From assembly GCA_032358165.1 (NCBI GenBank), contig JAALGY010000044.1, positions 558,001 through 622,000 of the forward strand: a stretch of 64,000 nucleotides of DNA. The letters run 5' to 3'. Source of the DNA: Diplosphaera chodatii (lineage: Eukaryota; Chlorophyta; Trebouxiophyceae; Prasiolales; Stichococcaceae). Under the pieces are notes generated by a model. The model searched no databases, was not told the DNA's origin, and saw nothing but the letters and a program-made list of their open reading frames with translations. Of this stretch, positions 4,602 through 46,600 are shown one piece after another. Positions within the stretch are counted from its first letter, which is position 1. Every line of letters begins with the position of its first letter. The position numbers and the translations under genes are program-made.

Positions 4602-7600
4602 TCATTCAGCCAGCTTGCCCGACTTATAGCCCTTGGTCGCCAGCAGCTTGGCTCGTCGCCGGGCACTGGGGTCGTCTTCCGCATCCGCCTCCGCCTGTGC
4701 CTGCTCCCGCGCTTCAGCCCGAGCATACCGCACCTGATGAGATGCGGTGCCAAACCTCAGAGCGTGCCCCCATGCATGCTCGACGCAACGCGTCTGTAGC
4801 ATGTGTGCGTGCTCATGATCATGCACATGGCTCAGGGAAGACTTCTGCAACTAGTCCAATGCAGTGGGGCCGGATTCTCACCGGCTCTGGCTCTGGGGCT
4901 TCTGCGGGCTCTTCCTCAGCGGGCTCCCGCCGGTGTGCGGAGTGCGGCGCGCTCTTTGGCAGCAGCGGCCCGGGCTGCACAGCCGACATCGTCGACAGTC
5001 AAGCATGCTGTGTGCAGATGGTGTTGTCCACAGGCGATGTGTGATGATGATCGTCGGCAGCACCAGCAGCATCGCTGCCGGTCAGGCTGCAGCTCGGAGC
5101 TCAGCATCGCTCAACAGCGCAAGCCGCCACGCGCTGCAGGTGCAGGGGCGCACCTGCATCGCGGGGGGCGCCTCCGAGGAGTTCATCGCCAGCTGCGCGG
5201 CGCTGAGGCTGTCGCTGCGCTCGGCGCCGCCGCCGCCCTTGCTGCCGGCGCTGCTGGTGGGGTGCGGCCCTGGCAACCCAGCACCCAACCGACACGTCAC
5301 ATTGCGATGGCCACTGCACAAGGGCCGGGCACTTCGGACACCGTACACAGCAATCCGTGCATCGACCTGACTCGCACACCTGTGCGCAATCTGAAACCCT
5401 CAGGGACGGACCTGAAAGCCGCTGCCACGCCTCTGAGGGCTGCCGTTCCGGCGGCGCGTCCGCCCCCGGCTCCGAACCCTGCCACGACGGCAGCGACGAC
5501 AGCTGCCGCGCCGCGTCGGGCCCCATGTCCCGCACAGTCAGCTCGTTGGCCGCCTGCAGCCGTGCGGAACAATCAGGGTCTCAGACGCCACTGCTCGATC
5601 ACGGGACCTTCAGCGAACGTTGCCACGCTATAGCCATATTTCATTCTGCAGGCTCCACTCACAAGGAAAAGCCAAGAAGCTTCAACAGAGCACACCCGCA
5701 GCTGCAACCCACCTCGTTGGCTGTGCCGCTGGAGGCGTTGCTGTGCCCCCTGGACATTGGGCGGGCCCCGCCGCCGCTCGGCTGCTGCTCGCCGGACCGC
5801 CGGTCCGGCGACGCCGGCTCGGCAGCCCGCGTCGCGAAGGCCGACGGCTGCTGCCTCAGCCGGTGCTGCTGCGGCTGGTGCACGCTGTCCGGCTGCCGGT
5901 CGGTGCTGCCGGCGCTGCCGCGCTCGGAGGGCGCTGGCGACGGCTCCGAAGCCGCCCCGCCCGCCGCAGAGAAGATCGCCCGCATGGCGGGCAGCTTCTG
6001 CGGAGATGGAGCCGCAGACTGTCAGCGTTTGTCCCCTCGAGCCGCGCTTCCGGTGCACATGGGTGATGACATGCATAACAGCTGCAGCTGAGCCCCATTT
6101 TGGCTGGGTACGGTGATTTTTGAAAACAGAGGGGGTCCGGCACCCGTTGCCTAAATCTGGCAAGTGCCAGCGGATGGTGAACTTTGCCAGCATGTTCAGG
6201 GTACAGTCATTACCGCATTGCACTAGAGGAACCGCGCCCACCTGCGCTGCCGGGGTGTAGCTGCCGGCGCGCTGGGCGACATCGGTGGCGCCCAGGTTGC
6301 GCATCGTCAGCTCGTTCACCTCGGCCCGGCCCGCGGCGTCCTGCGCAGCACGCGGCACCCCGGGTCAGCAGCGCAGCATCGCATGCCGCCAGATGCCGGC
6401 GCCAATGAGTGCGCGGCCGCTGCCAAGTACCCTGCTCACCCTTGTGCCCTCGGTGCCGATGCAGGTCAGGAGGATGAACAACTGCCATCTCAACAGCATA
6501 ACCTGGTAGGAAATTTGATAGGAAACATGGATGCGTGTTTGCTCACCGGGTCCACCGGGCTGGCGTCCAGGGCGGGCGTGACCACGGGGGTGGAGGGCGC
6601 GGAGTCGCTGCCGCCGGCGCTGCTGGCGGTGTAGTTGTTGGGCGCCAGCTCGAAGGACTTGGCGCTGCTGTGCCGCTGCACCAGCGGCTTGCCGGCCCTG
6701 CAGCGGCAGCATGAACGCTGCAGGTCAGCATCTGGGCGTGCAGCAGCATCTGTCCAGAGCCGCCAATGCCAAGCATGCCGGGTGTGCACGGGCGGGGGAG
6801 ATAACACAACAGCTGTGACACATGCATCGCTGCTGAAGCACAGTGCTGTTTTCCAGAGGTCAGCTTGAAGGCTTTGAGGCAGAAGGTGATGCCTCACCCT
6901 GTCGTCGGCGCTGGGACCTCCTTGTCATCATCATCATCGCCGCCCCATGCGTCATCAAAGGACTGCAGGGTGCGGCGGGGGCGCCTCGGCACATTGGACT
7001 CGGTCGCCCGCCGCGGCCTGCCGTCCGTGCCTGTACAGAAAGTCGGTAGGGAAAGCCCTGTCAGTAGCTGCCAGCCAGGAAGAAGGATGGCTGGCAGGAA
7101 GAAGGATGCGAGTGTATCTGGTGGGCTCGTGTACGGGGTTGCAGAGTTGGCAGAAGGTATGCACGAGTGAAATGCAGATTGCCATTGCTGTGTGGCAGCG
7201 CGGCCATCGCTCTGCAGGCAAGGCCCGCGTGCCCCCATGTACCCTGAAGGGCGGTGGTGCAGCCAACAGAGCAGGCAGAGGTTAGGCCGCACCTGTGGGC
7301 AGGTTACGTGGCGGCGAGGGAGGCGGCGACCGCCGGCCGACCGTGCCCGGAGCCTTGGGAGTGGACCCGCCTGCAGGCAGGGCGTGCGGTCTGTCGGCGT
7401 GCAGGTTTTGCCACCCTTGCTGCCATCACAAGACGGCTTGGAGTGACGGGCAGTGCGCACCGTCAAAGCCGTTGCATGGTAGCATGTCGCGTCGCCTGCT
7501 ACAGCTTTTGGACGCTAAGGCAGCTGCGACAGAGGGGTTTGAAGGTAGAGATAGCACCTGACGTGAACGTGTCGGAGTGCCGGCCATTCGCGTGCGTGGG

Positions 7601-24693: not shown

Positions 24694-24697
24694 AAAA
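24694..24697 (-). terminator. Pol III TTTT terminator of the permuted tRNA
   Basis: On the minus strand a run of four T stands 20 bases after the end of the downstream (5') half of the tRNA, as expected for RNA polymerase III termination after a short trailer. Confidence 0.6.
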
Positions 24698-24717: not shown

Positions 24718-24817
24718 CCCTAAGCGAGAATCATACCACTAGACCAATCACCCAGTTGGACACCTATCGAATCGCTAGGGAGGGGTGATCCGCGAATTGA
24801 ACGCGGGACCTCTCGCA
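24718..24817 (-). tRNA. Circularly permuted tRNA-Pro (AGG)
   Basis: On the minus strand the 3' half comes first (24817-24782): T38, GCGAG, variable AGGTC, T arm CCGCG-TTCAATT-CGCGG, ATCACCC and discriminator C. After a 28-base spacer (24781-24754) comes the 5' half (24753-24718): GGGTGAT, TG, D arm with GTCTAGTGGTATGAT, T, CTCGC, TT, anticodon AGG and G37. Rejoined at position 37/38, the acceptor (7 bp), anticodon (5 bp) and T (5 bp) stems pair perfectly, and the D and anticodon arms read as a standard eukaryotic tRNA-Pro. The B box therefore precedes the A box (TGGTCTAGTGG). Such genes are known from Cyanidioschyzon, some prasinophyte algae and nucleomorphs; their transcripts are circularised at 37/38 and the spacer is then cut out. 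No ordinary copy of this tRNA was seen in the window. Confidence 0.93.
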
Positions 24818-24860
24818 AGTCAGTACCGGCTGGTTGGCAAGTTCCACATATGATCACATG

Positions 24861-24880
24861 GCAATAAATAAAAGTATACA
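24861..24880 (-). promoter_or_regulatory. A/T-rich TATA-like element upstream of the permuted tRNA
   Basis: Read on the minus strand, this stretch contains TATACTTTTATTTATTG, about 45-60 bases before the first tRNA base. Plant-type Pol III tRNA genes often carry TATA-like elements upstream. The distance is slightly long, and function is inferred. Confidence 0.35.
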
Positions 24881-25382
24881 TCCTATTGTTATCAAGCCAC
24901 TTTTCAGAAAACTAGCGGTTTCAGGGTTTAGCAGACTCTCATCAACCTTCTGGATGCAGCAGCTACGTTCCTGTGAGAAGCGGCGTGAATTGACGACGCT
25001 TTCCGCCTCAGTACCTCATCACAGAAGGTTTGCAAGGCCCATGCCGGCTCCTTTGACTCCGGCTTTGGCCGTCATATATGGACAGCACATTACACAGCCA
25101 ACCTCAAGCTGCCAGCATTGCTGGGTGCAGAATAGAGAGGAGCCTTGTTTCAACAATCAATCAATCTGCTGAGTTTCCCAGCAACCTCTTAGAGCAGTGT
25201 TGCAGCATGGCGTCCCAGACTCGTATAGCTGTATGCAGCCTCATATACTAATAAAATGCTGCCAGCTGCGGACTGAGTACTGCGGCCTCTGCTGCAGCAG
25301 CATGCACAGCGCCCGATGCCTGGCGCAGCTGCTGAGAGGCAGCGGCATCGTGCAGCAGCAATGCTGCCTGCATGCACAACAG
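24881..25382. other. AT-richer spacer
   Basis: It lies between the permuted tRNA and the LSm remnant and is less GC-rich than its surroundings. A short plus-strand frame around 24834-25172 has no domain or coding look. No gene was recognised. Confidence 0.4.
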
Positions 25383-43667: not shown

Positions 43668-46600
43668 ATGGGCGACGCACAGCTAGACGGTGTAAAACTA
43701 GATCGTGAGCACCAGGACTGGTACCAGTCCAAAGTGCAACCAGTCCTGCAGCAGCTTGCCAGGACGGGTAACGCTGCCGAGGTCGGTGCTGCTGTCTGTC
43801 TGCAGCGAATGACTGCTGCAAGCATGGTGGAGACATGACTTTGTCAGAACAGCAATTACATGAGATCCTACAACGGTGTTGCAACGGATTCTGCCGCTGC
43901 ACCATATAGGCCTGGCGACAGCTGGCTCAGCTGCTGACGCCGCAGCATCCCTTTGCCCTGCACATTGCGCTGCTGCGCCAAGTCGAGCGGCGCTGGAACG
44001 CGGATGCCGAGGTGCTGCTGACAGCACAGCCGGAGGGCATCCTCATACACAGACAGTGGCCGGTAGGCAGCGATGTGGGCTGCAGCGCCCTAACAGATTC
44101 TCGCTGCTGCATTGCTGCAGGGACCATTTCCGCTGTGGCGCCCGGACCCTGCGGTAGTGCAGGCCACCAATCTTGCGCACTTCATGGCTCATGACTTCGA
44201 GGTGCTTGGTACTGCTCGCTGTGCACGTGCATGCGTCACCAGCAGCACAGCCTGCCGGACAACACGTTGCCGCCGTCAGCAACGTGCGCTGGCGTCTGCA
44301 GGGTGGTGAAGACTGGCAGCGCGGGTGCACCGGGGTTGCGGCGGCGGACCTGCCGCTGCTGCAGCGGCTGTCGTGGCGGGAGCCAGAGCGCTTCTGGCCG
44401 GCCGCGCTGCAGCAGCTCAACCTGCGGTTTCACCGTCCGCCACACAGGCACGCCACCTGGGACCGTGGGCGTTGGCTGACAGTTGCGCTGGCACTGTTGT
44501 GCCTCATCATGACATCAAGCATCGTTGACACTAATAGATGCTGCTGGTGTCACAAATGTTCATGGGCAACAGCAGAAAGCCTGACATGTCTGCAACGTCC
44601 GAGCACGTGATGAACATTGGTGCTGTGCCATGATGTTGCAGAATCCTGCAGGCAGCAGACGACCCCGAGCATGCCCGCTGGCTGCCGGGCGCACAGCTCA
44701 ACATAGCAGAATCCGCACTGGCAGGTCCGCTGCACCACTCCACCTGGCAGATGGTGTGCTAGCATGCATGCAGAGCAAATTTAAAAGCAGCGAGGGCAAC
44801 CTCTCAAGTCAGGCAACCAGCCCGCTGGCTATGCTCTGCAGGCGACGACGAGCAGACAGCGGTGTTGTGGGCAGCGGAAGCCGCACCTGCAGACGTTCAC
44901 ACAGTCGGCCTGGGGGATCTGCGGCGGCGCTGCTACACAGCCGCGACGGCGCTGCAGCGGTTTGGCCTCAAACCAGGTGCACAGCAGTCTAGCAGGGCAG
45001 CACAGAGAGCTGTCAGCACATCACCAATTTCCCACCCGACCGTCATCAGCTGATGGCACTTGCATGTACGTGCCCGTCCTGCAGTCCGAACGTGGCATCG
45101 CACACCTGAAGAGTCACTTGGCAGTCGCGATTTGTCAGAGTATGCTGCTGCAACTCAGGTGACGCTGTGGCCATCTACATGCCCATGTCGCTAGAGAGCG
45201 TGGTCGCATATCTGGCCATCATCCTTGCGGGCTGCGCTGCCGTCACCGTCGCAGACTCCTTCGCCCCGAAGGAGATCGCAACACGACTGCGCATCGCACG
45301 CTGCAAAACCATCTTCACTCAGGTACGAGCCTGCTGGGTATGACATGCCATTTCCAGCACAGGCTGTGGGGCTGCAATGCAGCGACACTGCCTGGGGCCC
45401 AGACCTCAGGGAGTACCAGTGACACGCTAGCCAGGCAGTGCATCCCGGGAACGGTGATAGAATCGCAATAAACCTCTGGTCTGTGACCCGTAATAGGACG
45501 TGGCAGTGCGGGGCGGGAAGGCATACCCGCTGCATGCTAACGTGGCCGCCGCCGGGGATGCGCCAGCCATTGTGGTGCCTGCCGACACTGCCAAGGGCAT
45601 TCAGGTGTGTCTGGCGGCTGCAGGCACACCTTGACATCACTGCACGGCCGCCCTCCCCCAGCAGCTGCAAGAATCTCAGCACGCATTGCAGCTGAGTGTT
45701 GGCAGCAGTGGTACATCTGGTTGCTTGCGGCAGCACGGTCACAGCAGCCAGCTGTGGCTCATCTCTTCTTATCAAACGCCTCGCCATGCAATGCTAGCCG
45801 TTTGCACAATGTGCAGGTGCAGCTGCGGAGCCAGGACACGAGCTGGTCCCAGTTCCTGCAGCGCAGTGAGCAGCACGCTTCCAGCTTCCGTCCGCATAGT
45901 GCGGACGCCGCTGCCGCTGCCAGCATCCTCTTCTCCTCTGGCACCACTGGTCAGCGACATGTTGAATCTGTGAAAGGCCATCGACCCCTCACATGGGGGC
46001 CTCACTGCCTCAACTCACAAACATGTGTAGCACCCCCTGGTATATGAAGTAACTGGCAACACCCCGTTCCCTGGTCTGCACCGCAGGCGAGCCGAAGGCG
46101 GTGGTGTGGACGCACGTCACCCCGCTGCGCTGCGGCATCGACGCCTGGGCGCACCACGATCTGAAGCCGGGGGCAGTGGCGGCCTGGCCGACCAATCTGG
46201 GTGGGACTAGTCAAAGCAGGCGGTCAATGCCACCGTGCCAAAAGGCAACACCATCTGCACATGCCCCACTGATGCCAGCCTGCTAAGACTAGTACGGCTG
46301 CCAGCTCAATGGTGGATCGTTGCGCGGATACTTTGATCAGCTGGCGCGGATGGCGGAGCGCTCCCTGCATCTGGGCGCTGCAGGGTGGATGATGGGGCCC
46401 TGGCTGGTGTTCGCCGCGCTGCTCAACCGCTGCGCGATGGCGCTGTTCCAGGGGCCGCCGCTGGGCCGGCCGTTCGGCGAGTTTGTCTCCGCAGCGCGTG
46501 TGACGATGCTGGGCGTGGTGAGCAAGTCATGAAGCTTGCAGAATGCTCAGCAGCCAGTATGCTGCCGCCGGCTCATGATGGGCCAACAGTATCGACCAAG

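Follow-up and report, generated by a model that had tools for sequence, protein, structure and literature searches.

A circularly permuted tRNA-Pro(AGG) gene in a green alga, its homeologs, upstream element, and predicted processing

The permuted tRNA-Pro(AGG) locus

The window (the whole 64-kb stretch of DNA analyzed, G000:C38:558001-622000 of an 85.6-Mb assembly in 55 contigs) carries on its minus strand a tRNA-Pro gene whose two halves stand in inverted order. Reading directly along that strand, we found a leader, the 3′ half from T38 to the discriminator C73 (36 nt; 24782..24817), a spacer of 28 nt that closes the acceptor stem and is predicted to be cut out (24754..24781), the 5′ half from G1 to G37 (36 nt; 24718..24753) with the anticodon AGG at 24721-24719, and a trailer. 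A survey of folds and T-runs placed a TTTT, the likely Pol III terminator, 20 nt past the 5′ half (24694..24697; minus strand, as are all features of this gene). With its 3′ half upstream of its 5′ half on one strand and a short spacer between the acceptor ends, the locus is a type II (37/38) circularly permuted tRNA gene. The sequence-only reading of this DNA had proposed the permuted layout, with halves at 24817-24782 and 24753-24718 and a 28-base spacer, and was exact to the base.

Rejoined in natural order and checked base by base, the two pieces yield a whole tRNA-Pro of eukaryotic type, anticodon AGG. As had been claimed, pairing is perfect in the acceptor stem (GGGTGAT/ATCACCC), the anticodon stem (CTCGC/GCGAG), and the T stem (CCGCG/CGCGG). 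The D stem contains one mismatch, at 13:22, that the sequence-only reading did not mention. The eukaryotic invariant bases are all found (U8, A14, G15:C48, G18G19, A21, U33, and TTCAA at 54-58). CCA is not encoded, TCCC following directly after C73.

Standard tools were silent on this gene: ARAGORN made no call of the permuted tRNA-Pro in the window, and an Rfam search of the window returned no family at its cut-off, as expected because the order of the halves is inverted. ARAGORN did call a tRNA-Arg(cct) at 44321-44407 of the window, which we dropped because we judged the sequence implausible as a tRNA. We built a covariance model of 37/38-permuted tRNAs, R1, from this genome’s ordinary nuclear and organelle tRNAs swapped in silico together with the real Pro halves. 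A permuted-tRNA search had been proposed as a check on the locus, and R1 returned this locus alone at E ≤ 10 in the window (61.1 bits), with an E value of 1.2e-16 that is flattering because the training set contains tRNA-Pro halves. The match, together with direct reading, supports the proposed break at 37/38 and covers both halves. A looser two-half pattern matched the window once, against 0.00 matches expected from 100 shuffles. The permuted Pro genes of this genome score 60.8-63.9 bits with R1, and the best match outside permuted genes, among this genome’s loci searched, reaches 27.1 bits (L077). Plain folding was left out of the evidence because the minimum-energy fold of the bare natural-order tRNA is not a cloverleaf and the whole 145-nt precursor, folded without constraint, is no more stable than its shuffles (z = 0.33).

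Permuted and ordinary tRNA genes across the genome

We searched the genome with a 22-base pattern for the 5′ half and a 27-base pattern for the 3′ half, each at ≤3 mismatches, and both searches converged on the identical eight tRNA-Pro loci. Four are permuted tRNA-Pro(AGG) genes (contigs C3, C10, C35, and C38), two are permuted tRNA-Pro(TGG) genes (C11 and C25), and two are tRNA-Pro(CGG) genes in ordinary order with an intron at 37/38 (C3 and C10). No ordinary nuclear tRNA-Pro with anticodon AGG or TGG was found by either search at this mismatch level; the plastid tRNA-Pro(TGG) is encoded separately, on contig C55. Provided that the assembly is complete and holds no more divergent gene, nuclear decoding of CCU, CCC, and CCA rests on permuted genes. 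The alga thus appears to depend on permuted genes for its nuclear AGG and TGG proline tRNAs, and the permuted tRNA-Pro gene is very probably essential.

Permutation extends to two further tRNAs. Using D-arm patterns and small stretches, we found permuted tRNA-Phe(GAA) and tRNA-Cys(GCA), a copy of each on both C17 and C45, scoring 54.8-57.4 bits with R1. The ten permuted genes found are all broken at 37/38 and have spacers of 8-31 nt; breaks elsewhere may be missed because R1 was built for 37/38. The tRNA survey was made by patterns and one query with plant tRNAs, and its counts are lower bounds. Ordinary nuclear genes include those for Thr, Arg, Lys, Val, Glu, Gln, Gly, Asp, iMet, Trp, Leu(CAG), and Ser(GCT); intron-bearing nuclear genes include Pro(CGG), Ile, Tyr, Asn, eMet, Leu(AAG), Ala, and Ser(CGA); where ARAGORN put the intron in the wrong place, we identified some of the anticodons by eye. 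A serine D-arm pattern matched one place on the plastid contig and eight in the nuclear genome; reading of these eight yielded no tRNA call. The survey also turned up a tandem array of tRNA-Trp(CCA), with eight matches at a spacing of 227-264 bases (G000:C1:1790116-1791977). Downstream of permuted tRNA-Cys 1, the end of its 5′ half recurs as a partial copy (TAGAGCGGTCGACTGCAG...; L080), which resembles the extra 5′ half noted for the tRNA-Cys of Ostreococcus lucimarinus in the accessible text of a 2014 review (PMC3978253).

An R1 score alone does not prove permutation because seams in tandem arrays of ordinary tRNA genes in other genomes reach 60.9 bits. The inverted order could on that account be an artefact, arising at the seam of an array of ordinary tRNA-Pro genes or from misassembly. 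A seam would be flanked by outer halves, and the six permuted Pro genes have none for 600 nt around them, nor do the Phe and Cys genes in the 116-180 nt on each side; the window gene is therefore not a tandem-array seam. Ten copies on several contigs, moreover, have the same order with differing spacers and flanks, and we regard an artefact as extremely unlikely.

The ten permuted genes form five homeologous pairs, the two members of each lying on different contigs, and these pairs bear on function. Across these pairs, the tRNA halves keep 360 of 361 positions, and identity outside them falls to 65-70% in the upstream 110 bases, 48-65% in the downstream 100 bases, and 55-85% in the spacers. 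The sole change within the halves, at position 5 of tRNA-Cys, turns U.G into C-G and keeps the pairing. The window gene and its homeolog (L055) are 100% identical in both halves and 68% and 60% identical in the flanks; the 28-nt spacer, which has no TTTT, is the same at 21 of 31 aligned positions. The three contig regions compared (C35/C38, C11/C25, and C3/C10) are collinear, with long blocks at about 71-81% identity and shorter blocks at up to 97%, suggesting two diverged subgenomes of a hybrid or an old polyploid. Further contig pairs (C17/C45, C46/C49, and others) were noticed by tRNA content only.

The sequence-only reading had named a rearranged pseudogene as its alternative, and such an unexpressed product of partial duplication and deletion has some precedent in this genome. 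Broken tRNA copies do exist in it, for example two Asn-like ones cut within the 3′ half and a Tyr-like one with a repeated anticodon-arm piece (L082, L084, and L087; by eye). That alternative needed ordinary tRNA-Pro(AGG) genes elsewhere, and the 5′-half and 3′-half genome searches found four permuted AGG copies and no ordinary one. Nor do the halves diverge as their flanks do, in the window pair or across the 361 positions of the five pairs; the window gene also retains a promoter-like element and a T-run (see below). Such constraint on the halves is what strong selection on a functional tRNA would produce and fits poorly with a pseudogene, a reading that we consider very unlikely. With high confidence, we read the locus as a nuclear tRNA-Pro(AGG) gene that is circularly permuted and functional.

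A shared upstream element and predicted maturation

In the aligned upstreams of 52 tRNA genes, we first recognized by eye a shared element that occurs before both permuted and ordinary genes. In the window gene, element 1 (AAACCCTGAAACCGC; 24915..24929) matches AAACCCTRAWDCCGC exactly, element 2 (CTGAAAAGTGGC; 24896..24907) begins 22 nt downstream of the first base of element 1 and has one mismatch to TTGAAAARYGGC, and a TATA-like stretch seen by eye (TATACTTTTATTTATT; 24863..24878) follows. TATA-like stretches, likewise assigned by eye, precede the other five permuted Pro genes; they are weak before Phe and absent before Cys. The first seven letters of element 1 resemble the plant telo-box.

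At ≤1 mismatch, AAACCCTRAWDCCGC occurs in 21 of the 52 tRNA upstreams (8 of 10 permuted genes and 13 of 42 others) and is absent from all 2988 stretches of 165 bases drawn at random from the window. The best TTGAAAARYGGC match begins 22 bases downstream of where element 1 starts in 13 of the 21 genes. The composite score of the window gene, 45.9, lies above all 1989 control stretches, gene scores being leave-family-out and control scores coming from the matrix of all sites. At p ≤ 0.01 with the leave-family-out matrix, 34 of the 52 genes pass for the core and 28 for the full element; eight of the ten permuted genes pass the element thresholds, the exceptions being Pro-AGG b1 and b2. Many tRNA genes have no clear copy. 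The 52-gene set omits seven further copies of the Trp array, Ala (L102 and L103), the broken copies L082, L084, and L087, the odd tRNA-like L074 and L075, L099 (the same gene as L060), organelle tRNAs, and the later loci L112-L126.

Genome-wide, element 1 occurs exactly 35 times, against once for the pattern read backwards, and 12 of the 35 are the tRNA genes from which the pattern was derived. We read 15 of the other 23: seven stand before a tRNA or 5S gene (L115, L116, L117, L120, L122, L123, and L124, of which L116 and L117 are copies of each other and L123 was judged by eye on an incomplete stretch), and eight do not (L112, L113, L114, L118, L119, L121, L125, and L126). In one of the seven (L122:4-195; G000:C46), the element starts 73 bp before a 5S rRNA gene (85.8 bits). 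By eye, the element is not there at two U6 genes (L100 and L101), and it is therefore not the promoter of every Pol III gene.

This distribution suggests that the composite element is a gene-external Pol III promoter. We lean slightly toward a broader model, in which Pol III genes of this alga (tRNA genes in either order and at least one 5S gene) would be driven by an external AAACCCTRAWDCCGC-N7-TTGAAAARYGGC about 70-145 bp upstream, together with a TATA-like stretch. Permuted genes would then be transcriptionally neutral, because internal A and B boxes need no particular order, and could replace ordinary ones entirely. On this model TFIIIC could be reduced or absent. An exon-by-exon genome search for the B-block TFIIIC domain PF04182 gave no match, and an intron-split gene could escape such a search.

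We next consider the junction. In the minimum-energy fold of the window gene’s anticodon arm with leader and trailer, the anticodon stem is followed by a three-base bulge, C-U-U38 (24817..24819), and a helix, UUAG/CUGA, in which the leader bases CUGA (24820..24823) pair with U32-U33-A34-G35; by the bulge-helix rule, the predicted 3′ cleavage site falls between U and U38. Such a bulge-helix is predicted in six of the ten permuted genes (the window copy, Pro b1 and b2, Pro TGG 1 and 2, and Phe 1). It is not in the minimum-energy fold of the other four, namely Pro a1 (the window gene’s homeolog), Phe 2, and Cys 1 and 2; by eye, the Cys pair has two bulge-helix pairs only. The helix measures 5-6 bp in Pro b1 and b2 and in both TGG genes and three pairs in Phe 1. 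That of the window copy is weaker than in Pro b and Pro TGG, with 4 bp, one of them G.U, and G36 unpaired with its would-be partner. Among three types compared by eye, base 34 covaries with its partner in the leader or intron (A-U in AGG, U-A in TGG, and C-G in the CGG intron). In all ten permuted genes, the first run of four or more T lies 5-20 nt past the 5′ half, and no spacer contains one. The catalytic domain of tRNA-splicing endonuclease (PF01974; cut-off 27) has partial matches, covering 31-34 of 85 positions, on C47 (30.6 bits) and C15 (29.3 bits).

From these features, and by analogy with work on Cyanidioschyzon merolae and prasinophytes, we infer a maturation route. Pol III would start upstream through the external element and TATA-like stretch, rather than through the inverted internal A and B boxes, and stop at the T-run. 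In the folded precursor (leader, 3′ half, spacer, 5′ half, and trailer), the molecule would be closed by the anticodon stem, and pairing of the leader with bases 32-35 would create the bulge-helix. tRNA-splicing endonuclease would then remove leader and trailer at 37/38, and tRNA ligase would circularize the molecule by joining G37 and U38. The spacer would be excised from the acceptor loop by RNase P and tRNase Z before CCA is added, and the product would decode CCU and CCC, as well as CCA if it carries inosine. The halves might instead be joined without a circle, the spacer being cut first and the two pieces trans-spliced like split tRNAs; all cut sites would coincide, and the order of cutting is not readable from DNA. 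Circular intermediates have been found for algal permuted tRNAs, according to the accessible text of PMC3978253, which makes trans-splicing very improbable here and favors the circular route.

A possible permuted tRNA in phages, and permuted tRNA genes of other algae

A permuted pattern was also found in public viral and prokaryotic contigs (37 stretches plus at least 117 more), and R1 was run on the 37 and on 80 listed loci. Among these, 26 matches reached ≥40 bits. Of the 24 that were checked, 22 span ordinary ARAGORN tRNA genes and L235 spans intron-bearing tRNA-Gly genes (by eye); the two outside the 24 (L157) have letters identical to checked ones. The remaining match, at 47.9 bits, lies on a viral contig (L134, IMGVR_UViG_3300003324_000006; 6291-6378), where ARAGORN finds no tRNA.

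The L134 match belongs to an unannotated stretch of 83-91 nt between tRNA-Pro(TGG) and tRNA-Gly(TCC) in Streptomyces phages, mostly Beephvirinae among those examined (L134:6289-6380, L281:1290-1378, L282:190-280, L283:173-263, L284:174-264, L285:190-272, L286:174-256, L287:166-251, L289:186-271, and L290:186-271), with R1 scores of up to 52.0 bits. We compared eight distinct sequences, leaving out L289 (the same letters as L287) and L283 (L284 minus one T-stem base). In all eight, the closing stem forms six of six pairs, three of which show two-sided changes, and the T stem forms five of five; the ends are constant, GA and GTGACTT (one GTAACTT). Unaided folding gives a four-armed permuted cloverleaf in five of the eight (Stella, FlowerPower, Zeigle, JPandJE, and HaugeAnator); Abafar and L134 come near it with extra pairs, and Dennebes does not fold so. 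RosePharie and WRightOn have at this place just a 43-nt hairpin bounded by those constant ends (L291:210-252 and L293:194-236), and Manuel has lost the stretch, leaving a 3-nt gap (L292:210-212).

The phage stretch is possibly a permuted tRNA-Val (GAC, one AAC), with a modeled 5′ half that ends exactly at the start of tRNA-Gly. Several observations speak against this reading: base 37 would be U, the acceptor stem is bulged in several phages, a tRNA-Val(tac) is also annotated in Stella, and R1 gives scores as high as 46.7 bits to seams within the same tRNA array. That the stretch encodes a translating tRNA is for these reasons uncertain. In our literature search we noticed no phage described as having a permuted tRNA.

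As for the alga itself, the 120 listed relatives of its mitochondrial Atp6 include four with organism names, Prasiola crispa (89%), Lobosphaera incisa (88%), Prototheca wickerhamii (84%), and Picochlorum (83%), all of which we take to be trebouxiophytes; other listed sequences reach up to 95%. Because all four belong there, the alga is very likely a trebouxiophyte, which supports the earlier view of the host as a core chlorophyte.

The 2014 review, in its accessible text, counts 34 permuted genes in seven species, the green algal ones broken at 37/38 except one and none of them for proline (PMC3978253). The type II genes of prasinophytes (Ostreococcus and Micromonas) and the Bigelowiella nucleomorph described there share with the genes reported here the order 3′ half, spacer, 5′ half, the 37/38 break, the bulge-helix (hBH) at the break, the short spacer, and, upstream of some, an AT-rich stretch. 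The review’s Table 1, however, lists no proline gene, whereas all nuclear AGG and TGG proline genes found here are permuted. An explicit upstream element common to permuted and ordinary tRNA genes further sets this alga apart. Cyanidioschyzon merolae, as covered in the same text (PMC3978253), likewise has a TATA-like signal upstream and a T-run downstream of its permuted genes; its circular maturation route is the one proposed here. Its breaks lie at 20/21, 37/38, 50/51, and 59/60, whereas ten of ten lie at 37/38 here, with a model specific for 37/38.

The sequence-only reading had suggested that a permuted tRNA gene in a core chlorophyte would widen the known range. This claim fails because Auxenochlorella, of the same class, Trebouxiophyceae, was already reported in 2025 with permuted tRNA genes; core chlorophytes were therefore already known to have such genes. 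In Auxenochlorella UTEX 250-A, according to the accessible parts of the reports, a standard tRNA search left the set incomplete and permuted genes were then found (PMC12636532, PMC12633428). The accessible text of PMC12636532 describes no promoter element for that alga, and the string ‘AAACCCT’ is absent from its main text. No published account of the upstream element stood out in our literature search, and no other core chlorophyte with permuted tRNAs was found in it, subscription papers lying outside its reach.

As far as that search reaches, the present alga is the second trebouxiophyte with permuted tRNAs, beside Auxenochlorella. Core green algae probably have more permuted tRNA genes than have been reported, since standard search programs can overlook such genes, as ARAGORN did the window gene. 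How genes with misordered internal boxes are transcribed, and what purpose permuted genes serve, are discussed and left unsettled in the accessible text of PMC3978253. This genome adds interest on two counts: its nuclear AGG and TGG proline tRNAs appear to depend on permuted genes, and the upstream element shared by permuted and ordinary genes makes the question of transcription testable.
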